The notes beneath the pieces were generated by a model. That model was not told the DNA's origin. It ran no database searches and worked only from the letters and a program-made list of their open reading frames with translations. From Paracoccaceae bacterium (GTDB lineage: Bacteria > Pseudomonadota > Alphaproteobacteria > Rhodobacterales > Rhodobacteraceae): a stretch of DNA of 64,000 bases. The stretch is taken from positions 1-64,000 of the forward strand of contig JALSJM010000017.1 in assembly GCA_026989355.1 (NCBI GenBank), written 5' to 3'. Of this stretch, positions 38,313 to 51,193 are shown piece after piece. Both the position numbers and the translations under genes were made by a program. Numbering within the stretch: the first letter of the stretch is position 1; each line of letters starts with the position of its first letter.

Positions 38313-39134
38313 TCAGTAGCCAAGCGCACGGCGCAGCATGTTGCCCGCCACCAGGATCAGGAATACCGCGAACACCCGCTTGAGCGGCTTCGGATCAAGC
38401 CGGTGCGCAAGCCGCACGCCAAGCGGGGCCGTGATCAGCGTCATCATCACCACCACCATGAAGGCGGCCAGGTTGACCGCCCCCACCGTAAGCGGCGGAC
38501 GCGCCTCGGGCGGGATGTCCACAAGCAGGAAACCGATCACCGAGGGCACGGCGATCAGCCCGCCGAACCCGGCCGCGGTGGCCACCGCCTTGTGAATTGG
38601 CTTGCCGTGCAGCACCATCAGCGGCACCCCGAATGACCCCCCGCCGATCCCCATCAGGGTGCTGAGAAACCCCACCACCACCGACAGCCCCAGCCGCAGG
38701 GCGCCTTTCGGCATCTCGCCGGCGATGCTGCGTTCGATGCGGCCGAACCCCATCCACAGCCCGATCAGCATGCCAAGCACGCCAAAGATCGCCTGCAGCG
38801 CCGGGGTGCGCAGCGCCGCCACTGCCAGCACTCCCAGAACCGCACCAACCGCAATTCCCGGCGCCCATGTGCGCAATACGCTCCAGTCCACCGCGCCGCG
38901 GCGGCCATGGCTCAGCACCGAGCGCGCCGAGGTAACGATGATCGTCGCCAGCGAGGTGGCAAGGCAGATCTGCATCAGATAGGGGCTGTCATGGCCCAAA
39001 GCCGAAAAGACATGATAGAAGGCCGGCACCAGCACGATCCCGCCCCCCACGCCCAGCAGCCCCGCCAGCACCCCGGCAACGCCTCCGACAACTGCCAGCA
39101 CCGCAATCAGCGGCAGAAGTTCCGCGATTTCCAT
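38313..39134 (-). CDS. TauE/SafE-family anion exporter
   Basis: A 273-residue membrane protein with about eight hydrophobic segments and the two family repeats (GVLAGLLGVGGGIVLVPAF and GFLSTLMGIGGGSFGVPLM). Members export sulfite, sulfoacetate or related organosulfur anions. It starts one base after the dusA stop with AAGGAATGAC before the ATG, so it is co-transcribed with dusA. The sulfide-oxidation cluster lies just upstream on the same strand (40.3-46.8 kb), which makes a sulfite-export role attractive, but that link is inference. Confidence 0.9.
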   Translation of the reverse strand: MEIAELLPLIAVLAVVGGVAGVLAGLLGVGGGIVLVPAFYHVFSALGHDSPYLMQICLATSLATIIVTSARSVLSHGRRGAVDWSVLRTWAPGIAVGAVLGVLAVAALRTPALQAIFGVLGMLIGLWMGFGRIERSIAGEMPKGALRLGLSVVVGFLSTLMGIGGGSFGVPLMVLHGKPIHKAVATAAGFGGLIAVPSVIGFLLVDIPPEARPPLTVGAVNLAAFMVVVMMTLITAPLGVRLAHRLDPKPLKRVFAVFLILVAGNMLRRALGY

Positions 39135-39135
39135 G

Positions 39136-40215
39136 TCATTCCTTTCCCGCCATCCCGGCCCGCCCGTCGTCTTGCCCCGGCGACAGAGATGTCACCGCCT
39201 CCAGCGCCGCGTCCAGCACCTCGAGCCCCGCCCCCGGGCGCCGCGCGCCCTCGCTCAGCAGCCGCCGCCAGCTGCGTGCGCCGGGGCGACCGGCGAACAG
39301 ACCCAGCATGTGGCGGGTAATATCGTGCAACCGCCCGCCTGCTGCCAGGTGGCGCGCAATATGGGGGCGCATTTCCTGTGCAATGTCCACGGGGGTCCGC
39401 GCCGTTACCGGCTGGCCGAAAACCGCATGATCCGCCCCAAGCAGGATATCGGCCGGCCGCTCGTAGGCCGCGCGCCCGATCATCACCCCGTCAAGCCCGG
39501 CCTCAAGAAAGCCGCATGCCTGTTCCAGCCCGCCGATGCCGCCGTTGATGGCAACATGCAGATGTGGAAAAGCGCGCTTCATCTCGAGCACCAGGCCATG
39601 ATCAAGTGGCGGAACGGTGCGGTTTTCCTTCGGAGAAAGCCCCCTGAGCCAGGCCTTGCGCGCATGGATCTGAAAACGCGACACCCCCGCTTCCGAAACC
39701 CGGGCCAGAAAATCCGGCAGAATCGCACGCGGCTCCTGCTCATCCACGCCGATGCGGCATTTCACGGTGACCTCGATGCCTTCCGCCGCCCCGATCATTG
39801 CCGCCACGCATTCGGCCACCAGCCCGGGCTCCTTCATCAGCACCGCACCGAAGGCACCCGACTGCACCCGATCGGACGGGCAGCCGACATTGAGGTTGAC
39901 TTCGCAATAACCCGCCCCGGCCGCCAGCCGTGCCGCCGCGGCCAGTTCCTCTGGATCGCTGCCGCCAAGCTGCACCGCCACCGGCTGTTCGGCCGGGTCG
40001 AAATCAAGCAGGTGCAGTGCCCTTCCCCGCACCAGCGCCGGGGCCGTCACCATTTCGGTGTAAAGCAGCGTGCGCGCGCTCATCAGCCGGTGGAAATAGC
40101 GGCAGTGGCGGTCGGTCCAGTCCATCATCGGCGCCACCGAAAGACGCGCCGCCGCCCTCACCGCCTGCCGGTCCGGAACCTGCCCTGCCATTGCCGATCG
40201 CCCGCCTTCTGCCAT
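39136..40215 (-). CDS. dusA: tRNA-dihydrouridine(20/20a) synthase
   Basis: FMN enzyme reducing U20/U20a in the D-loop of tRNA. The 359-residue protein has LSVAPMMDWTDRHCRYFHRL, EVNLNVGCPSDRVQSGAFGA with the active-site Cys, and VKCRIGVDE. IHARKAWLRGLSPKENR, a mark of DusA over DusB/C, is also present, as is the FMN-binding NGGIGGL. The ATG at 40215 has GGGAGGG in front; an ATG at 40191 is the alternative. It is 1 base before tauE-like. Confidence 0.95.
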   Translation of the reverse strand: MAEGGRSAMAGQVPDRQAVRAAARLSVAPMMDWTDRHCRYFHRLMSARTLLYTEMVTAPALVRGRALHLLDFDPAEQPVAVQLGGSDPEELAAAARLAAGAGYCEVNLNVGCPSDRVQSGAFGAVLMKEPGLVAECVAAMIGAAEGIEVTVKCRIGVDEQEPRAILPDFLARVSEAGVSRFQIHARKAWLRGLSPKENRTVPPLDHGLVLEMKRAFPHLHVAINGGIGGLEQACGFLEAGLDGVMIGRAAYERPADILLGADHAVFGQPVTARTPVDIAQEMRPHIARHLAAGGRLHDITRHMLGLFAGRPGARSWRRLLSEGARRPGAGLEVLDAALEAVTSLSPGQDDGRAGMAGKE

Positions 40216-40303: not shown

Positions 40304-42172
40304 TCAGGCAGCAGGGGTGGCTTCAGGCCCCGGCCCCGCGGCCCCCCCTTGTCTGCCGCTGCAGGCCTTTCCCCCCTTTCCGGCACCGGCGGCCATTGTC
40401 TCCGCGCCGGACTGCCCGGAGGCAGCGCCCCCCGCGCCGCCCTCGGCCGTCAGCGCCTCGACCGCCTGATGCTGGGACAGGAACACCCGCCCCGAGAGCG
40501 CCTCAAGGAAGTGGGTGCGTTCGAGGCGATCCATCACCGGGCCCTTCACCTCGCTCAGATGCAGCTTCACGCCAAGGCTTTTCAGCCGCTCGTTGATCGC
40601 TTCAAGGGATTCAAGCGCGCTCATGTCGATCTCGTTTACCGCGGGGCACATCAGCACCACATGCCTGAGCGCCTTGTTGCCGACCACGCGATCGTAGATG
40701 TAATCCTCCAGAAACCGCGCATTGGCGAAATAGAGGCTTTCATCCACCCGGATGGTCAGGATTTCCGGAGTGGTTTCCACCCTGTGGCGCAGAACATTGC
40801 GGAAATGCTCGGTGCCCGGCACCCGGCCCACCTCGGCGATATGGGGGCGGGATGTCTTGTAGAGATAGAGCAGGATCGAGATCAGAACCCCGGCCGAAAC
40901 CCCGGCCTCCACGCCAAAACCGAGCGTGATCAGGATGGTGGCCGCCACGGCGGCGAAATCGGCCCTGGAATAGGCCCAGGTGCGCTTCAGGATCGAGAAA
41001 TCCACCAGCGAAAGCACCGCCACGATGATGGTGGCGGCCAGGGTCGCCTTGGGCAGGAAATACAGCAGCGGGGTGAGGAACAGCGCCGCCAGCAGGATGC
41101 CGGCAGCGGTGAAGGCACCGGCGGCCGGGGTTTCGGCCCCGGCGTCGAAATTCACCACCGATCGGGCGAAGCCGCCGGTAACCGGATAGCCGCCCGACCC
41201 CCCGGCGGCAATATTGGCGGCACCAAGCGCGATCAGCTCCTGGTCGGGGTTGATACGCTGGCGGCGCTTGGCAGCCAGCGTCTGCGCCACCGAGATCGAT
41301 TCGACAAATCCGATGACCGAGATCAGCACCGCCGAGCCTGCAAGGCTGGCCCACAGATCAAGGTCGAAGGACGGCAGGCCGAGAGGCGGCAGGCCGCTCG
41401 GGATATCGCCCACGATCGCCACGCCGGCGCTGTCCAGACCGAAACCCGCAGTGATCAGCGTGGTTGCCACCACTGCCCCCACCGGCCCGGCCTTGGTCAG
41501 GATGTCGGCCGTGCGCGGCCTTGCTCCACGCGCCAGCAGCACCGGCTTCAGCCCCTTCCTGATCCAGAACAGGAAGGCCGTGGCCGACACCCCGATCAGC
41601 AGTGTGGGCCAGTTCACCTCGGGCAGATGGGCCCAGAGCGAAACCACCAGCTGATAGAGATTGTGGCCATGCGCCTTCACCCCGAGAATGTGTTTCAGCT
41701 GGCTGGTGGCAATGATCAGCCCGGAAGCGGTGATGAAACCGGCAATTACCGGATGGCTCAGGAAATTGGCAAGGAAACCCAGCCTGAATATCCCCATCAG
41801 CAAGAGGAAAAGCCCCGAAAGGAACGCCAGCGCCATGGCCGCAGCGGCATAGGCGGCCGGATCATCAAGCCCCAGGTTGCCGATCGCGGCTGCCGTCATC
41901 AGCGAAACCACTGCTACCGGCCCCACCGCCAGCACCCGGCTTGTGCCGAACACCGCATAGGCCACCAGCGGCAGGATCGAGGCATAGAGCCCCGCCTCGG
42001 CCGGCAGCCCCGCCAGCAGCGCATAGGCCAGCGACTGCGGAATCAGCATGATGGTGACAATCACCGCGGCAACCGCATCGTTGGTGAAAGTATCGCGGTT
42101 GTATGTGGCCCCCCATTCGAGAATGGGGAAGTAGCGGCGCAGACTTGCGGGAACGCGCAGGGTGGGTTTCAT
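40304..42172 (-). CDS. SulP-family anion transporter with STAS domain
   Basis: A 622-residue SLC26/SulP transporter. The membrane part (about 20-440) has the family marks TIMLIPQSLAYALLAGLP, FGTSRVLAVGPVAVVSLM and GGYPVTGGFARSVVNFDAGAE. The cytoplasmic STAS domain (about 450-570) includes ILTIRVDESLYFANA and EIDMSALESLEAINERL. The last 50 residues are Gly/Ala-rich and low complexity. SulP proteins carry sulfate, bicarbonate or other anions. Being 51 bases after the sulfide:quinone oxidoreductase, this one probably moves sulfate or sulfite made by the cluster. ATG at 42172; the GTG at 42175 is equally possible. Confidence 0.9.
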   Translation of the reverse strand: MKPTLRVPASLRRYFPILEWGATYNRDTFTNDAVAAVIVTIMLIPQSLAYALLAGLPAEAGLYASILPLVAYAVFGTSRVLAVGPVAVVSLMTAAAIGNLGLDDPAAYAAAAMALAFLSGLFLLLMGIFRLGFLANFLSHPVIAGFITASGLIIATSQLKHILGVKAHGHNLYQLVVSLWAHLPEVNWPTLLIGVSATAFLFWIRKGLKPVLLARGARPRTADILTKAGPVGAVVATTLITAGFGLDSAGVAIVGDIPSGLPPLGLPSFDLDLWASLAGSAVLISVIGFVESISVAQTLAAKRRQRINPDQELIALGAANIAAGGSGGYPVTGGFARSVVNFDAGAETPAAGAFTAAGILLAALFLTPLLYFLPKATLAATIIVAVLSLVDFSILKRTWAYSRADFAAVAATILITLGFGVEAGVSAGVLISILLYLYKTSRPHIAEVGRVPGTEHFRNVLRHRVETTPEILTIRVDESLYFANARFLEDYIYDRVVGNKALRHVVLMCPAVNEIDMSALESLEAINERLKSLGVKLHLSEVKGPVMDRLERTHFLEALSGRVFLSQHQAVEALTAEGGAGGAASGQSGAETMAAGAGKGGKACSGRQGGAAGPGPEATPAA

Positions 42173-42223
42173 CACATGTTCTTCTGTTCTGTTTCGAAAG
42201 GGGCATCCGGCCGGGCCGGTGCT

Positions 42224-43906
42224 TCAGCCCTGTTCCTTCACCGTAATCCTGTCGGGGCGTGCCAGCCATTCCCTGCCCCGCAGCATTGCCTTCCAGTAGA
42301 TCGGCGGCAGTATCCTTTCCTTCAGGAGCCACGCCGCGCGGCTTGGTTTCTGGCCATTGATCACGAATTTCGGAAAGCTTGGCAGCAATTTGCCGCCATA
42401 ACCGAACTCGGCCAGCACGATCTTGCCGCGCTCCACGGTAAGGGGGCACGAGCCATAGCCGTCATAGGCGCTGGTTGCCGGGCGGCCGGCGATGGCGGCC
42501 ACCAGGTTGTCGGCCACCACGGGAGCCTGCTTGCGCGCGGCGGCCGCCGTCTTGGCATTGGGGGCATTCATCACGTCACCAAGCGACCAGATGTTGTCGT
42601 ATTGCGTATGGCGCAGGGTTTCCTTGTCCACATCCACCCAGCCGGCGGCATCGGCCAGTGGCGAAACCCGGATGAAATCCGGCGCCACCTGCGGCGGGCA
42701 GACATGAATCACGTCGAATTCGATTTCCACGCGCTCCTTGTCGCTGTCGGGCTGCGTCACTTCGAAGGTGGCCTTTTTCGCCGCCCCGTCGATGGCCACG
42801 AGATTGTTGAAGAAACTGAGCCGCGCGTCGTAGCGCTCGATGTATTGCATCAGTGCCGGTACATATGCCTCGACCCCGAACAGCACCCCGCCGGCATTGC
42901 GGAAATCCACCTCTATATCCTTCAGAACTCCGGTGCGCTGCCAGTGATCGGCCGAAAGATACAGCGCCTTCTGCGGCGCGCCGGCGCATTTGATCGGCAT
43001 CGGCGGCTGGGTGAATACCGCCCGGCCCTGCCTGAGCCCCTGCACGAGCTTCCAGGTGTAAGGGGCCAGATCGTAACGGTAATTCGATGTCACGCCGTTC
43101 TGGCCAAGCGTTTCGGCAAGCCCCTCGACCGCATCCCAGTCAAGCTTCAGGCCCGGGGTAACGACAAGATGATCGTATTTCACCACCCGGCAGCCATCAA
43201 GGATCACCGCGTCATTCTGCGGCTCGAAGGCGGCTACGGCCGACTTGATCCAGTGCACGCCCGGCGGAATCAGCGAAGCCATGGTGCGCGCGGTTACCTC
43301 CGGATCGAACACCCCTGCCCCCACCAGCGTGAAACCCGGCTGATAGTAATGCACATCGGCCGGGTCGATCAGTGCGATCTCAAGGTCGGGCTTGCGGGCG
43401 CGCAGGCTGGAAGCCACGGCAATACCGCCGGCGCCGGCGCCCACGATCACCACGTCAAACCGGGCATCACCCGTATCGGTAGGAGTCTTGCCGCCATTGA
43501 GGATACGGCGCACCACGCCGCCCATGTCATAGCCCGCCGCCTTGGTGGTGGCGAGGATCTCGGTCGGTTTCATGCGCCCCGCCTGCGCCAGCGACCACAG
43601 GGTAGTGGTGCGGGTGCCGGTGCGGCAATAGCCGAAGATCGGCTTGGGCAGTTCCAGAAGCGCCTTGCGGAAGGCCTCTACGTCCTCGTCCGAGACCATC
43701 CCGCCGCGGATCGGGATCCAGCGGGTTTCCAGCCCTTCCTGCCTGGCAACCTTTTCGATCTCGTCGAAATTGGGCTGATCGGGGGCCTCTCCGTCGGGGC
43801 GGTTGCAGATGATCGCACGGAATCCCGCCTCCTTGATGGCTTTCACATCCCCGGGCGTGATCTGCGGGGCTACGGAAATCTCCTCACTGATCCTGCGAAT
43901 ATCCAT
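42224..43906 (-). CDS. DUF442 phosphatase-like domain fused to sulfide:quinone oxidoreductase
   Basis: A 560-residue fusion. Residues 1-110 are a DUF442 (TIGR01244-type) domain with a phosphatase-like loop FGYCRTGTRTT (Cys94). Residues 150-560 are a type II SQR flavoprotein: FAD motif VVIVGAGAGGIA, KCAGAPQKALYLS with Cys307, FGVEAYVPALMQYIE and GYGSCPLTVERGKIVLAEF. SQR oxidises sulfide to persulfide and passes electrons to quinone. The human enzyme uses a second Cys in a GDCTN segment; here the matching segment is GDVMNAPNAKTA (Val445), so the chemistry or sulfur acceptor may differ. It lies between the persulfide dioxygenase and the SulP gene. Confidence 0.9.
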   Translation of the reverse strand: MDIRRISEEISVAPQITPGDVKAIKEAGFRAIICNRPDGEAPDQPNFDEIEKVARQEGLETRWIPIRGGMVSDEDVEAFRKALLELPKPIFGYCRTGTRTTTLWSLAQAGRMKPTEILATTKAAGYDMGGVVRRILNGGKTPTDTGDARFDVVIVGAGAGGIAVASSLRARKPDLEIALIDPADVHYYQPGFTLVGAGVFDPEVTARTMASLIPPGVHWIKSAVAAFEPQNDAVILDGCRVVKYDHLVVTPGLKLDWDAVEGLAETLGQNGVTSNYRYDLAPYTWKLVQGLRQGRAVFTQPPMPIKCAGAPQKALYLSADHWQRTGVLKDIEVDFRNAGGVLFGVEAYVPALMQYIERYDARLSFFNNLVAIDGAAKKATFEVTQPDSDKERVEIEFDVIHVCPPQVAPDFIRVSPLADAAGWVDVDKETLRHTQYDNIWSLGDVMNAPNAKTAAAARKQAPVVADNLVAAIAGRPATSAYDGYGSCPLTVERGKIVLAEFGYGGKLLPSFPKFVINGQKPSRAAWLLKERILPPIYWKAMLRGREWLARPDRITVKEQG

Positions 43907-43994
43907 GCGCGCGTTCCCTCTTCTTGCATGTCCTTCTGCATGACTGAAATGGCCGGGGGCACCTGTCTGCCCCCGGCCTTCCCCCGTGCGGGGA

Positions 43995-44894
43995 TCAGAG
44001 CTTGTTGACCGGCACCTTCAGGAACACGTCGCCCTGTTCGTCCGGCGGCGGGAATTCACCCGCCCGCATGTTGACCTGAAGCGACGGAATGATCAGGCGC
44101 GGCATGGCAAGCTGGGCGTCACGCTCCTGGCGCATCCTCACGAATTCCTCTTTCGTGGTGCCCTTTCCGAAGTGGATGTTATGCTCCTTTTCCTCCTTCA
44201 CTGTGGTTTCCCACATGATCTCGCGCCCGCCGGGGGCGTAATCGTGGCACATGAAAAGGCGCATCTCGTCGGGCAGAGCCAGGATCTTCTGGACGCTGTC
44301 GTAAAGCTGGCCGGCATCGCCACCGGGAAAATCGGCCCGTGCCGAGCCGCCGTCGGGCATGAACAGCGTATCCCCCACGAAGCAGGCATCGCCGATCACA
44401 TGGGTCATGCAGGCGGGCGTGTGGCCCGGGGTATGCATGGCAAAGCCCTTCAGGGAGCCGATCTCGTAGGTATCGCCGTCTTCGAACAGAATGTCGAACT
44501 GGCTGCCGTCACGCTGGAATTCGGTGCCTTCGTTGAACACCTTGCCGAACACGTCCTGCACGATGGTAATGTTCTTGCCGATGGCTATCTTGCCGCCCAG
44601 CTTTTCCTGGATATAGGGCGCGGCCGACAGGTGATCGGCGTGCACGTGGGTCTCGATCTGGATCACCAGTTCAAGATCGTTCCTGCGAATGAAATCAATG
44701 ATCTTGTCGGCCTGCTCATAGGCGGTGCGACCGGCCGCATAATCAAGATCGAGCACCGAATCCACCACCGCGCAGGCATTGGAATCGGGATCCTTCACCA
44801 CATAGGAAATGGTGTTGGTGTCTTCGTCAAAGAAACCGGTGACTTCGGGCTTGATGCTCATGTCAACCGGATATGTTCTGGCTGTGTCCTTCAT
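43995..44894 (-). CDS. Persulfide dioxygenase, ETHE1/Blh-type metallo-beta-lactamase-fold protein
   Basis: Oxidises glutathione persulfide to sulfite with molecular oxygen. The 299-residue protein has the MBL metal motif THVHADH (82-88), HTPGHTP (154-160) and GDTLF (174-178) with the Asp, and CHDYAPGGRE (216-225). The mononuclear-iron arrangement of ETHE1 is consistent with these. It is longer at the C-terminus than ETHE1, as in the Blh proteins that accompany BigR/SqrR regulons. AAGGAGG before the ATG at 44894 fixes the start; the ATG at 44951 is not credible. It sits between the pmpAB pair and the SQR fusion. Confidence 0.92.
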   Translation of the reverse strand: MKDTARTYPVDMSIKPEVTGFFDEDTNTISYVVKDPDSNACAVVDSVLDLDYAAGRTAYEQADKIIDFIRRNDLELVIQIETHVHADHLSAAPYIQEKLGGKIAIGKNITIVQDVFGKVFNEGTEFQRDGSQFDILFEDGDTYEIGSLKGFAMHTPGHTPACMTHVIGDACFVGDTLFMPDGGSARADFPGGDAGQLYDSVQKILALPDEMRLFMCHDYAPGGREIMWETTVKEEKEHNIHFGKGTTKEEFVRMRQERDAQLAMPRLIIPSLQVNMRAGEFPPPDEQGDVFLKVPVNKL

Positions 44895-44940
44895 TCTTGT
44901 GTCCTCCTTCTCGGATACTGTCGGGCCGGGCCGGAGCCGG

Positions 44941-45384
44941 TCAGGGCGCAATCCGGGCGGCCATGGTCTGTTCGCGGCGTTTCAGGATCAGGCGGGCAAC
45001 CAGAATGCCCGCCAGAAGCGAAGCGACAAAGATCAGCACATCGGCATTCAGCGTACCGATCACCGGCAGGGCTCCGCCGGGACAGAAACCGCTGATGCCC
45101 CAGCCGATACCGAAGATCGCCGCGCCGCCCAACAGTCGGGCGTCGATCACCCTGCTGGTCGGCAGATAGAAGCGATCTCCCAGCAACGGGCGCGGGCGCC
45201 CCAGCACCAGCCGGTAGCCGATGAAGGTGATCGCCAGAGCCCCCGCCATCACGAAGGCCAGGCTTGGATCCCATACCCCTGCCACATCGAAGAAGTTGAC
45301 CACCTTCGCCGGGTTGCCCATGCCCGATATGGCGATCCCGAGACCGAATACAAGGCCGATCACGTAAGCGGCAATCAGACGCAT
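44941..45384 (-). CDS. YeeE/YedE-family half-transporter B (DUF6691/PmpB-like)
   Basis: A 147-residue protein with four hydrophobic segments, beginning RLIAAYVIGLVFGLGIAISG and carrying WGISGFCPGGALP, where the Cys in CPGG is the transporter motif. Paired YeeE/YedE halves import thiosulfate or sulfenated/persulfidated small molecules. It is the second of a pair, 3 bases after the stop of the first half. Gene symbols pmpB and yedE are both used for such proteins; no exact name is justified. Confidence 0.88.
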   Translation of the reverse strand: MRLIAAYVIGLVFGLGIAISGMGNPAKVVNFFDVAGVWDPSLAFVMAGALAITFIGYRLVLGRPRPLLGDRFYLPTSRVIDARLLGGAAIFGIGWGISGFCPGGALPVIGTLNADVLIFVASLLAGILVARLILKRREQTMAARIAP

Positions 45385-45387
45385 TCC

Positions 45388-45828
45388 TCAGCCCCCCAGT
45401 ACATGGCGCATCACGTAAACCGTAAGCGCGGTTGTCGCCATGAAGGTCAGCGTGGCGGCTATCGAACGGCGCGAAAGCCGTGCCATCCCGCAGACCCCGT
45501 GGCCCGAGGTGCAGCCCGACCCGACCGTTACACCGATCCCCACCAGAAAGCCGCCGAGCACCTGCCAGGGCACGTTCGCCACCGACTGGATCGGCGGCAT
45601 CTGCCCGGCAAGCAGGAAATAGAATGCCGGCGCACTGATCATTCCGAGCAGGATCATCACCCGCCAGCCCCAGTCGCGCGCGCCAGCCGGAAACAGCACC
45701 CCCGCCAGAATGCCGGTGGCCCCCATGATACGGCCGTGAAACAGCATCAGCGCCACCGAGGCAAGCCCGATCAGCACGCCGCCCAGAAGGGCCGCGTAGG
45801 GGGTGAATGCGGTGGTCATGTCGCTCAT
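45388..45828 (-). CDS. YeeE/YedE-family half-transporter A (PmpA-like)
   Basis: A 146-residue membrane protein with four hydrophobic segments. It contains [21 protein letters not shown], the [12 protein letters not shown] motif of YeeE/YedE proteins with its two conserved Cys. The start at 45828 overlaps the stop of the upstream small ORF as ATGA. With the B half it should form one sulfur-compound channel feeding persulfide or thiosulfate to the downstream oxidation enzymes. Confidence 0.9.
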
Positions 45829-46013
45829 GTCCGCCCCCCTTCTGCCATGCGCCGCTCATTGCTCCGCCACTCCGTCCGCCATGCGGCCCTTGCCGTTGCC
45901 GTATTGCCTGATCCTGCCAGAACCGCCGGCAGGAATGCGCTTGTTCCCCCCGTGCACGGAAGGAACAACGCCGCCCCCCCCGCCGCACAGGCCCAGATGA
46001 TGATCTCGGGCAT
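45825..46013 (-). CDS. 62-residue membrane protein ORF at the head of the sulfur cluster
   Basis: Small ORF starting MPEIIIWACAAGGAALFLPCTGG: a single hydrophobic segment with two Cys, then an Arg/Ala-rich cytoplasmic-looking tail. AAGGAAA stands 9 bases before the ATG, and the stop overlaps the PmpA start as ATGA, both good signs of real translation. It could be a leader peptide that couples translation of the transporter, or a small accessory subunit. I do not recognise a family, and a chance ORF is possible. Confidence 0.5.
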   Translation of the reverse strand: MPEIIIWACAAGGAALFLPCTGGTSAFLPAVLAGSGNTATARAAWRTEWRSNERRMAEGGRT

Positions 46014-46062
46014 GATTTGCGTTTCCTTGCATTTTCGAATCCGTTCGCCAGGCCATTATATA

Positions 46063-46098
46063 TGCAAAAAAATGAATTTGTCATGCTTTTTTTGTGCA
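46063..46098. promoter_or_regulatory. AT-rich imperfect inverted repeat, candidate operator of the sulfur cluster
   Basis: TGCAAAAAAATGA (46063-46075), a 5-base centre, and TCATGCTTTTTTTGTGCA (46081-46098) make an imperfect palindrome. It lies between the regulator stop and the first gene of the cluster. The AT content is striking against the GC-rich surroundings. It is 50 bases upstream of the small ORF on the minus strand, where an operator or promoter is expected. Confidence 0.5.
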
Positions 46099-46162
46099 AC
46101 CCCGTGCCCGGCCCCGCCGGGCCTCCGGACCGCGCGCCCACAACCGTCCGTTCAGACGGGTT

Positions 46163-46831
46163 TCAGGCCGATCTTGCCAGCTTCTCCAGTTCGCAGCGGG
46201 CAATGATCCGCACCTCGCCACGCGCGGCCTCGATCCAGCCGCGCCGGCGGAATTCCTGCAATTGGCGCGAGATCACCTCGCGTGCGGTGCCCAGTTCTGC
46301 CGCAAGATCATGATGGGTGGCGCGAACCGTGCTGGTCTCGTCGGCCAGGCTCAGCAGCCGCTGTGAAAGCCGGCTGTCCACCCTGCGAAAGGCAACATCC
46401 CTGACCACGGAACCAAGCTGCACCAGACGCAGGGAATAGGTATCGATGACAAATCTCCGGAACGGGGCGCTTTCCCCCATCAGCTGGTCGCACAATACGG
46501 GCGGAACGGCCGCAACCTGCACCGGCGTTTCGGCAATGCCTTCGATCACGCCTTCCGCGGTATTGCTTCCGTGCGGCACCTGATAGGTCGAGGGCATCAC
46601 GCAGGCCTCTCCCGCGTGAACCCGGAACAGAACGATCCTGTGTCCGCAGCCGACCGATTGCAGAACACGCATGTCGCCCCTGATGATGAACAGCAGGTTT
46701 CCGACTGCCCTTTCGGCGTCGAACACCTTTTCGCCCGGATCGACATTCATCACCCGCGTGCCGGCCAGCAACCGGTTTCGCACATCGTCATCAAGCCCGG
46801 AAAGGGCCCGGAAATTCTCAGTCCACTGCAT
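46163..46831 (-). CDS. Crp/Fnr-family transcriptional regulator
   Basis: A 222-residue protein with an N-terminal cyclic-nucleotide-type beta barrel (about 20-110, VGNLLFIIRGDMRVLQSV) and a C-terminal winged helix (HDLAAELGTAREVISRQLQEF, about 174-194). It has Cys at 62, 77, 114 and 213, but not the N-terminal Cys cluster that holds the iron-sulfur centre in FNR. The typical cAMP-binding loop is also absent. It is encoded just before the sulfide/persulfide genes on the same strand with a likely operator between, so it may sense a reactive sulfur species. Most known persulfide sensors are ArsR, CsoR or sigma-54 activators, making this type less usual. Confidence 0.85.
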   Translation of the reverse strand: MQWTENFRALSGLDDDVRNRLLAGTRVMNVDPGEKVFDAERAVGNLLFIIRGDMRVLQSVGCGHRIVLFRVHAGEACVMPSTYQVPHGSNTAEGVIEGIAETPVQVAAVPPVLCDQLMGESAPFRRFVIDTYSLRLVQLGSVVRDVAFRRVDSRLSQRLLSLADETSTVRATHHDLAAELGTAREVISRQLQEFRRRGWIEAARGEVRIIARCELEKLARSA

Positions 46832-48445: not shown

Positions 48446-51193
48446 ATGGAGAACACCATGAAGAATACCGGCAAGAAGGAAACAGGCAGGGCGGGCACGG
48501 ACCCCGCTGTGCAGGGCACGCACTCCTGCTGCCCTGCACAGCGGCAGGATCAGCGGCAGGCGGAAGTTCCCGGCACATGCGGCAAGAGCTCCGAAAGCAG
48601 CGTGTCGGAACATGCGGCACCGGCAAGCCCTGCCCCGGATCGCGCAGAGGGCCGGGGCAAGGGCGTCACGATCCGGATCGAAGGCATGTCCTGCGCCTCC
48701 TGCGCCGGGCGGGTTGAAGGCGCGCTGAGGGAACTGCCGGGCGTAACGGAAGCCACCGTGAACCTGGCCTCGGAAAGCGTGCGGGTGACACACACTGCGC
48801 AAACGCCCCTGCCCGCGATCACTGCCGCGCTTGCTCGGGCCGGTTATCCGGCGGTGACCGAAAGCGTGACGCTCGAGATCGAAGGCATGTCCTGCGCCTC
48901 ATGCGTGGGGCGGATCGAACAGGCGCTGAAACGGGTGGAAGGGGTGGTGCAGGCAACCGTGAACCTGGCCACCGAAAGCGCCAGGATAGACTATCTGGCC
49001 AGCGCCATCACCCCCGAAGAACTTGCCCGGATCGTGACCGATTCCGGCTACCCCGCCCGGATAAAGGCCGCCGCAACCCCGGACAAGGCCCGTGCAACCC
49101 GCAAGGAGGAGGAAGCCCGCGCGCTGGCCCGCAAGACGCTGATTGCCGCCCTTCTTACCCTGCCGGTATTCCTTGCAGAGATGGGGGGGCACGTGATTCC
49201 GGGGCTGCGCCAATGGATCGAGGGCAGCATCGGCCGGCAGACCCTGTGGCTGATCGAATTCGTTCTTGCCACCGCGGTGCTGATCGGACCCGGCCGGCAG
49301 TTCTATGCAAAGGGCTTTCCGGCACTGGCGAAGGGCACGCCCGACATGAATTCGCTGGTGGCACTCGGCACCTCCGCCGCCTGGACATATTCGGTGGTGG
49401 CCACCTTTGTCCCCGCGCTGCTGCCTGCACAGGCGGTGAATGTCTATTACGAAGCCGCGGCAGTGATCGTGGTGCTGATCCTGCTGGGCCGCACGCTCGA
49501 AGCCCGCGCCAAGGGGCGCACCGGGCAGGCGATCCGCAAGCTGGTGGGCCTTCAGCCGAAAGAGGCGCGGGTGGAGCGCGACGGTGAAATCCGCCAGCTG
49601 CCGATTGCCGAAATCCGCCCCGGAGACGTGATCCACGTGCGTCCGGGCGAACGCATCCCGGTGGATGGCGAAGTGATTTCGGGCCACTCCTTCGTGGATG
49701 AAAGCATGATCACCGGCGAGCCGGTTCCCGTGGAAAAGAGCGAAGGCGCCGAGGTAGTGGGCGGCACGGTCAACACCACCGGTGCGCTTGGCTTCCGGGC
49801 CACCCGCGTGGGTGGCGATACGCTGCTTGCCCAGATCATCCGCATGGTGGAAGAGGCCCAGGGAACCAGACTGCCGATCCAGGGGCTGGTCGATCGCATC
49901 ACCGGCGTCTTCGTGCCCGTGGTGATGGCAATCGCGGCACTTGCGATACTGGCCTGGCTGATCTTCGGTCCGGCGCCGGCACTTTCGTTTGCACTGGTGG
50001 CAGGGGTGTCGGTTCTGATCATCGCCTGCCCCTGCGCCATGGGGCTGGCCACGCCCACCTCGATCATGGTGGGCACGGGGCGTGCGGCCGAAATGGGCGT
50101 GCTGTTTCGCAAGGGCGATGCGCTGCAGCGGTTGCAGGCGGTGAAGGTGCTTGCGCTCGACAAGACCGGCACCCTTACCGAAGGGCATCCGGTGCTGACC
50201 GATCTGGCCATCGCCGATGAGCTTCCCGAAGGCATGCAGGAAGACGACGTGCTGCGCCTTGCCGCCGCGGTGGAGGCAAAAAGCGAACATCCGATCGCCC
50301 GCGCCATCGTGGACGCCGCCCGCAAGCGGGGCCTTGCCCTGCCCGATGTGCGGGATTTCGCCTCGCACACGGGGCTTGGTGTCGGAGCGCGGGCCGATGG
50401 CCACCGGATCCTGATCGGAGCCGACCGGCTGATGAATGACGAAGGGATCGCCCCTGGAAACCTGAAGATCTCAGGAGAGGCCCTTGCAAAAGAGGGGAAA
50501 ACACCCCTGTATGCCGCGATCGACGGAAAGGCGGCAGCAGTGCTTGCAGTGGCCGATCCGATCAAGAAGGGCAGCCCTGAAGCGATTGCCGCGCTGCATG
50601 AAGCAGGCCTTGAGGTGGCCATGATCACCGGCGACAACCGCGCCACCGCCCAGGCTATCGCCCAACAGCTCGGCATTGACAAGGTGGTGGCCGAAGTTCT
50701 GCCCGACGGCAAGGTGGAGGCCGTGAAGGCCCTGCGTGCGCGCCACGGCACCATCGCCTTTGTGGGCGATGGCATCAACGATGCTCCGGCACTGGCCGCC
50801 GCCGATGTGGGCATTGCCATCGGCACCGGCACCGACGTGGCGATCGAGGCGGCCGATGTGGTGCTGATCTCGGGTGATCTGCGGGGCGTTGTCAACGCTT
50901 TCGAGATCAGCCGCCGCACCATGCGCAACATCCACCAGAACCTGTTCTGGGCCTTCGGCTACAACGTGCTGCTGATCCCGGTGGCTGCGGGTGTTTTCTA
51001 TCCTGTCTTCGGCATGCTGCTCTCGCCCGCGCTGGCCGCCGGAGCGATGGCTCTTTCCAGCGTCTTCGTGCTGACGAACGCCCTGCGCCTGCGCCGGGCA
51101 AGGCCGGTACTCGGCGAAGATGCCACTCCCCGCGGCGGAGAGGGAAACAGCCCTCCGGTCTCCGCCACGGCAGCCGCAATCGCCACACGATGA
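48446..51193 (+). CDS. copA: Copper-exporting P1B-type ATPase
   Basis: Pumps Cu(I) from the cytoplasm. The 915-residue protein has a His/Cys-bearing N-terminal tail (HSCCPAQ, TCGK), two HMA domains with MSCASC at 81-86 and 148-153, about eight membrane segments, and the metal gate CPC at 528-530. The phosphorylated Asp572 lies in DKTGTLTEG, and the nucleotide-binding EHPIA and the [10 protein letters not shown] hinge are present. Start at 48446; an ATG 12 bases later is possible. It is controlled by a CueR-type promoter and followed by cueR 25 bases later. Tail residues before HMA1 exceed the family norm. Confidence 0.96.

Follow-up and report, generated by a model that had tools for sequence, protein, structure and literature searches.

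The window analysed here is a 64,000-nucleotide stretch from a Paracoccaceae bacterium (assembly GCA_026989355.1, contig JALSJM010000017.1, positions 1 to 64,000), in which a gene for a Crp/Fnr-type regulator stands ahead of an operon for sulfide and persulfide oxidation. Comparison of this locus with its relatives suggests that the regulator is one of a widespread clade of Crp/Fnr activators that would sense sulfane sulfur through a conserved cysteine, Cys77, and that the window's own member of the clade has been rewired or relaxed; we give this reading a probability of about 0.5. Somewhat more tentatively, we propose that the Crp/Fnr scaffold gave rise to a further class of persulfide sensor, in which a pocket cysteine would take sulfane sulfur instead of cyclic AMP (cAMP) and the protein would read an odd-spaced GTGAC-N3-GTCAC site near -41. 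Such proteins would occur in Alpha- and Gammaproteobacteria, Bacteroidota and Bacillota probably having relatives of them, and in the window's genus regulator and promoter would have been rewired together with the enzymes unchanged. If true, a Crp/Fnr activator whose cAMP pocket carries a cysteine would represent a solution separate from the ArsR-, CsoR- and Fis-type switches, and it could explain how sulfide oxidation is controlled in many Rhodobacteraceae.

In the window, the regulator, an open reading frame (ORF) of 62 amino acids, pmpA, pmpB and the genes for a persulfide dioxygenase (PDO), a DUF442 sulfurtransferase fused to a sulfide:quinone reductase (SQR) and a SulP-family transporter form one minus-strand run with short gaps (40304-46831). 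A sulfide cluster of this layout had been described in the first-pass annotation, a model's reading of the letters, and is borne out by the ORFs and by Pfam/NCBIfam support for the named genes. A search for the regulator in 149 genomes of the family gave matches in 69; those of at least 150 bits, in 37 genomes including the window's own, were taken as orthologs, and the remainder scored 76-120 bits. The 38 family loci considered below come from the 36 other ortholog genomes and from two congeners found later, with partner genes identified by tblastn using a small query set, so that an absent gene is one unmatched by that set. At all 38 loci, whichever of these genes are present stand in the order regulator, pmpA, pmpB, PDO, DUF442-SQR (SQR442), sulP; the entire set is found at 13 and part of it at most others. 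A PDO-type gene lies within 7 kb downstream of the regulator at 28 loci, pmpA or pmpB was detected at 23, sulP at 25 and SQR442 at 21 (DUF442-only genes counted in). By tblastn, a gene for a YgaP-like transmembrane (TM) protein follows the regulator within 1.3 kb at 24 loci, and its PF11127 domain was confirmed on three examples.

Nearly all genomes of the family have PDO (136/149 at 1e-60), and the regulator is therefore an option for the operon rather than a requirement. The control set consisted of 20 PDO operons from ortholog-free genomes, mostly next-best PDO matches, with four such genomes passed over; several of these genomes carry the paralog discussed below and some are incomplete. 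An ArsR-type gene adjoins the PDO operon in 4 of the 20, so that ArsR-type control, which the first-pass annotation had named among the usual kinds for similar clusters, is one alternative for this operon. Directly upstream of pmpA in one ortholog-free genome (L236) lies an ORF that appears Rrf2-like by eye, perhaps a third type of regulator.

The window regulator passes the HTH_Crp_2 profile (PF13545) with 50.6 bits against a cut-off of 27, and gave no match at 1e-3 to the cyclic-nucleotide-binding domain PF00027 or to any ArsR family in Pfam or NCBIfam, the latter arguing against a SqrR/BigR fold. AlphaFold models built from 6-row alignments gave the CRP fold and matched CRP-family structures, the best being 3dv8 (E 3.1e-16, TM-score, i.e. 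template modelling score, 0.56-0.58). No cysteine occurs in residues 1-61, and no cysteine column is found there among 39 family members; the protein thus has no FNR-type N-terminal cluster. In an alignment with E. coli CRP, Cys77 falls beside CRP residues 69-70, just ahead of Gly71-Glu72 of the cAMP pocket, and the nearly invariant Arg135 aligns with CRP Arg123. The regulator shares with FNR and cAMP-CRP the fold and the helix-turn-helix, and with CRP also the residues R, E and R of the recognition helix, which align; E. coli CRP reads TGTGA. Unlike these proteins, it has neither the cysteine cluster of FNR nor any counterpart of Glu72 and Arg82 of the CRP cAMP cassette, so that neither iron-sulfur nor cAMP features are present.

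The first-pass annotation had pointed to Cys62, Cys77 and Cys114 in a protein without the FNR cluster. All three are there, as is Cys213, which it did not mention, and conservation singles out Cys77: all 109 homologs aligned on the ortholog profile have Cys at position 77. Cys62 and Cys114 were ruled out as a sensor pair, neither being conserved in the 39 family sequences, where Cys62 is confined to the window and Cys114 to the window and its congener L009 (the metagenome-assembled genome Albidovulum sp. S140_23; also L091, genome G149). The usual second cysteine is Cys83, found in 80 of the 109 homologs and in 34 of the 39 family members, and replaced by Tyr83 in the window and in L009/L091. 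The only other Crp/Fnr protein of the window's genome that aligns over the pocket (L003) has Ala at the place of Cys77. Given the linkage of a non-FNR, non-cAMP regulator to these genes in many Rhodobacteraceae and beyond, the earlier suggestion of another kind of persulfide sensor is a fair one.

A conserved dyad accompanies the regulator. In a motif-free search of the gap between regulator and operon, GTGA-N5-TCAC was the commonest dyad (30 of 39 sequences), the runner-up among unrelated dyads occurred in 12 of the 39, and none exceeded 5 in three shuffled sets. GTGACNNNGTCAC is perfect at 19 of the 38 family loci and within one mismatch at 30, as compared with 0.9% of mononucleotide shuffles. 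It is nearly absent from ortholog-free PDO operons, with a single match within one mismatch among the 20 controls, searched up to 2.5 kb upstream (30/38 versus 1/20, Fisher P ~4e-8, uncorrected for relatedness). The contig of that lone control operon, L230, begins ~160 bases before PDO, and its regulator may be missing merely from the assembly. Past the dyad, at a fixed offset of 22 nt, comes a -10-like TA (T in 22 and A in 25 of 30 aligned sites). Since the TA lies 22 bases on, the dyad would be centred near -41 if the TA begins a -10 element. Class II Crp/Fnr activators bind at -41.5, and the position suggests the place of an activator, unlike that of the SqrR/BigR repressors.

Upstream of the regulator, where autoregulation would act, the dyad was found within two mismatches in 5 of 39 regions, one of them perfect (L073). 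In the window's own genome (G000), a search allowing two mismatches did not discriminate, giving 711 places per strand versus 814 for the reversed pattern, with 17 matches in the window versus 17.7 expected; among the matches listed, the lone perfect GTGACNNNGTCAC lies at contig C13:8708-8720 (L093).

The window lineage departs from this pattern. Four genomes of its genus are in the collection; two congener metagenome-assembled genomes (L010, L011) have the dyad and Cys83, and the window and L009 have neither and share Cys114 and a 4-residue insertion in the cassette loop. No perfect match to GTGACNNNGTCAC occurs in the window, and the best one between regulator and operon has 3 mismatches. 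The promoters of the window and L009 contain a block identical at 32 of 33 positions that includes ATGACA-N18-TATAAT, a promoter type found once where shuffled sequences gave 0.4 on average; in the congeners that carry the dyad, no such -35 hexamer is seen by eye. The first-pass annotation had placed the regulator's site at 46063-46098, an imperfect A/T-rich inverted repeat with 8-nt arms that are 100% complementary. A role of this repeat as the operator is not supported: it overlaps the core promoter-like sequence and differs from the GTGACNNNGTCAC operator of the relatives, which sits elsewhere.

The regulator of this lineage has also changed more than its enzymes. From the genus node (clade support 0.998), the regulator branches measure 0.96 for the window and 0.93 for L091 versus 0.19 and 0.21, and the enzymes show no matching acceleration (PDO identity of 93% between the window and L091, 83% between L092 and L045). 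The L091 enzymes are nearest those of L092 (PDO 96%, SQR 97.5%; range for PDO, SQR442 and SulP 96-98%), unlike its regulator and promoter, which group with the window, and the two seem to have been exchanged or rewired as one unit. Loss of Cys83 as a general cause of operator loss was rejected on L051, L060 and L069, which lack Cys83 and keep the dyad within one mismatch.

The window operon would probably depend little on the regulator and have high basal expression, which is expected because its core promoter is near consensus, whereas relatives have an activator site upstream at this place; or the regulator may act at a displaced weak dyad. Since the lineage is atypical, the gel shift and cysteine variants proposed in the first-pass annotation would here probe an atypical member. 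A more radical version, which we regard as rather unlikely, is that the window regulator no longer controls the operon, which would be constitutive or under a trans factor such as an ArsR-type protein, the regulator itself being relaxed or repurposed. Loss of the -41 dyad next to a near-consensus promoter fits this explanation, as does a regulator branch 4-5 times longer than in the two congeners beside ordinary enzymes. Six matches to ArsR-type HTH_5 exist in the genome, not all necessarily ArsR, and the same operon is found beside an ArsR-type gene at the four ortholog-free loci noted above. However, the regulator has an unbroken frame that retains Cys77 and the recognition helix, the gene still adjoins the operon, and no site of the inverted ATTC-N8-GAAT type, the SqrR motif, was evident by eye in the promoter.

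The regulator extends well beyond the family. Across the class, 22 of 289 genomes (three from the family) have a match to the window protein at 1e-12 or better; across the phylum, 121 of 348 match a 29-row profile at 1e-15 or better, weaker relatives included. We examined 20 new class-wide loci, one of them (L147) from the family. At 19 of these the YgaP-like TM gene was found no more than 3 kb away (at 14, downstream by no more than 1.3 kb), and 9 have a PDO-type gene in a range of 7 kb. Twenty phylum-wide loci, picked from the better matches and including two of the same class, gave the TM gene at 14 and a PDO-type gene on either side at 6. On plasmids, 33 records matched the regulator and ten regions were examined. 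The operon is annotated, whole or in part, in regions from Thioclava, Paracoccus aminophilus, Ruegeria TM1040 and Chelativorans; in Azospirillum and the gammaproteobacterium Thiothrix the regulator is accompanied by the TM gene. A distantly related Crp/Fnr protein of Spirosoma (Bacteroidota) is followed by TauE, a fusion of PDO with rhodanese and two YeeE genes. The Paenibacillus, Persicobacter and Pusillibacter regions gave no partner gene by tblastn; an MBL-fold (metallo-beta-lactamase) gene and a peroxiredoxin are annotated nearby in that of Paenibacillus. GTGACNNNGTCAC is present within one mismatch at 10/20 class-wide, 4/20 phylum-wide, 4/10 plasmid and 8/21 paralog-group loci; the site of Ruegeria sp. 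TM1040 differs from it at one position. On the P. aminophilus plasmid pAMI8 (L112, 4493-6748), genes for DsrE, OsmC and a flavin adenine dinucleotide (FAD) oxidoreductase run divergently from the regulator, and a similar set occurs at L062; the intergenic region could be a shared target.

The paralog group, represented by 21 lower-scoring loci, has Cys77 with Gly at position 83 in 19 and the TM gene within 1.3 kb downstream in 20. Because these 19 have no cysteine at 83, a single cysteine must suffice for the function of such members. The window's genome carries one of them (L081, G000 contig C16:2957-3625), with Cys77 and Gly at 83, located after mmsB and acyl-CoA genes and before a YgaP-like TM match.

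Such paralogs bear on an explanation that we consider unlikely, namely that the clade senses thiol redox state or reactive oxygen/nitrogen species in general through Cys77 (as sulfenic acid, disulfide or nitrosothiol), the sulfur genes being one target set. CprK and Lactobacillus FLP are Crp/Fnr proteins that switch by disulfide, and the 19 paralog-group loci keep Cys77 without Cys83, many of the group standing in another gene context (below). Against it, a sulfur-related partner was detected by tblastn, with the YgaP-like TM gene counted, at 38/38 family, 20/20 class-wide, 18/20 phylum-wide and 7/10 plasmid loci. The TM domain, PF11127, takes its name from an E. coli membrane rhodanese.

Returning to the window promoter, the lineage's protein might instead repress from ATGACAAATTC[A/G]T, across the -35 region, until persulfide releases it; we think this quite improbable. 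The block holding this dyad is the one identical at 32 of 33 positions in the window and L009, a closer agreement than that of the flanking bases, and the dyad is one helical turn closer to the -10 than is the site in relatives. The same bases, however, double as the -35 hexamer, for which alone conservation is expected, and mismatches to the family operator number 3 in the window and 4 in L009. Very unlikely is a role of Cys77 as heme ligand like CooA Cys75, with the protein sensing CO, NO or heme redox state: CooA (1ft9) is among the profile matches (E 3.5e-10) and the fold matches and is a Crp/Fnr protein whose functional, heme-binding cysteine lies in the same cassette, but CooA has heme and a histidine ligand, whereas no pocket histidine is conserved here, no histidine is invariant in 29 aligned members (the sole nearly invariant one, H173, sits in the DNA-binding half), and no CO or NO genes were seen in ten annotated regions.

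On the preferred reading, an activator clade sensing sulfane sulfur through Cys77, SQR would make persulfide from sulfide, and persulfide or polysulfide would modify Cys77 in the former cyclic-nucleotide pocket. Cys83, six residues on, would in most members work with Cys77, perhaps as a polysulfide bridge. The modified dimer would bind GTGACNNNGTCAC centred near -41, recruit RNA polymerase and activate the downstream genes, in whole or in part: the YgaP-like TM protein, the PmpAB importer, PDO, DUF442/SQR and SulP. The operon would convert sulfide and persulfide oxidatively into sulfite and thiosulfate and transport the anions, with PDO, DUF442 and the transporters clearing persulfide and products. 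The window lineage would have lost Cys83 and the -41 dyad, taken in four residues and gained Cys114, with a near-consensus -35/-10 promoter present.

Several points weigh against this reading. The tie of the regulators to sulfide is drawn entirely from sequence comparison. Ten of the 38 family loci have no PDO-type gene downstream, some contigs being short, and 8 have none within 7 kb on either side. The paralog group has Cys77, the TM gene and often an mmsB context (at 14 of 21 loci an mmsB homolog lies upstream on the same strand), and Cys77 alone is therefore no proof of a PDO role. The 109 homologs are mostly better matches, weaker Crp/Fnr relatives of the phylum-wide search having been left out, and the distant L014 (26% identity, outside the 109) has Phe at the place of Cys77. 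In the predicted models, the predicted local distance difference test score (pLDDT) of the cassette loop is below 50 at residues 82-93. As to the operator, the shuffles were mononucleotide ones, and one and the same family set served both to discover the motif and to count it. The usual Crp/Fnr site has a spacing of N6, one base longer than GTGA-N5-TCAC, and family loci L009/L091, L052, L058, L062, L064, L067, L070 and L080 have no good dyad, yet L062 and L070 have PDO downstream. Finally, measured from the family node, the regulator branches of the window (1.44) and L091 (1.40; median 0.85) rank with the longest but are equalled by those of L077, L113 and L118, so fast regulator evolution is not unique to the window.

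Among known structures, 3dv8, a Crp/Fnr protein of Eubacterium rectale (Bacillota), is the best profile match (E 8e-40) as well as the best fold match, and has C-x5-C at the places of Cys77 and Cys83; we know of no ligand or role for it. The persulfide switches named in the available excerpts of a review are SqrR and BigR (ArsR-type), CstR (CsoR-type) and FisR, with SqrR sensing sulfane sulfur through a Cys41-Cys107 tetrasulfide (PMC9774590). SqrR, BigR and YgaV come close to the proposed system: they control SQR and sulfurtransferase/PDO genes and sense sulfane sulfur with two cysteines, but they are repressors of the ArsR fold, whereas here the fold is Crp/Fnr and the candidate operator lies at an activator position. 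FisR and CstR likewise bring sulfide-oxidation genes under sulfane-sulfur control, FisR as an activator (PMC9774590, same excerpts), but belong to unrelated protein families, CstR being a CsoR-type repressor. FisR works with sigma-54, to judge by the title of a reference cited in the excerpted review (PMC9774590), whereas the -10-like element here suggests a sigma-70-type factor.

No description of a Crp/Fnr persulfide sensor was found among the matches listed, in literature exclusive of subscription papers and preprints, and an earlier description is possible. In their available excerpts, PMC9774590 does not contain 'fnr' and has 'crp' in its reference list only, PMC9995734, on SqrR in R. capsulatus, contains neither term, and PMC8014003 and PMC6710368 hold nothing on the regulator. 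PMC11582611, also excerpted, proposes that PmpA and PmpB together act like a YeeE-type transporter; it reports that Hyphomicrobium denitrificans pmpAB is unresponsive to thiosulfate and does not count it with sulfur oxidation.

Table 1. Features in and around the operon of the window.
Feature	Coordinates	Strand	Evidence or remark
Crp/Fnr-type regulator, 222 aa (amino acids), Cys62/Cys77/Cys114/Cys213	46163-46831	-	HTH_Crp_2, family orthologs, conserved Cys77
Place of GTGACAAGATCAC in congeners L010 and L011; no such dyad left in the window	46085-46097	-	Promoter alignment
ATGACAAATTCAT, weak dyad, centre near -30, overlapping the -35-like hexamer	46072-46084	-	3 mismatches to family operator
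Core promoter-like ATGACA-N18-TATAAT ahead of the operon	46055-46084	-	11/12 consensus matches; common to L009
62-aa ORF where relatives carry the YgaP-like TM gene; unconserved, doubtful gene	45825-46013	-	No Pfam/NCBIfam match
pmpA, YeeE/YedE half transporter	45388-45828	-	PF04143 (Sulf_transp)
pmpB, DUF6691 half transporter	44941-45384	-	PF20398
Persulfide dioxygenase (PDO), metallo-beta-lactamase fold	43995-44894	-	PF00753 (Lactamase_B), dioxygenase half of NF040641 (Blh), HVHADH motif
DUF442 sulfurtransferase fused to SQR-like protein	42224-43906	-	PF04273 (BLH_phosphatase), TIGR01244; NF049943 below cut-off
SulP-family anion transporter with STAS domain	40304-42175	-	PF00916, PF01740, TIGR00815
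dusA	39136-40191	-	Pfam/NCBIfam match
TauE/SafE-like predicted exporter past dusA, neighbour of the cluster	38313-39134	-	PF01925

The start codon of PDO is most likely at 44894, and that of SulP at 42175 (GTG) or 42172 (ATG). The 62-amino-acid ORF had been read as a small membrane protein; it gave no Pfam/NCBIfam match at 1e-3, and its body diverges by eye in three congeners. A glycerate-kinase-like gene precedes the regulator, and past sulP the same strand carries dusA and the TauE-like gene, both present as the first-pass annotation had them; the TauE-like protein may, as suggested there, export sulfite. The order sulP-dusA-tauE recurs at L217 in genome G003, where the genes run glyK, PDO, SQR442, sulP, dusA and tauE and neither a regulator ortholog nor a pmpAB match is present. 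On the plus strand of the window (48446-51193), a long ORF resembling a P-type metal ATPase and containing the metal-binding motif GMSCASC twice diverges from the glycerate-kinase-like gene.

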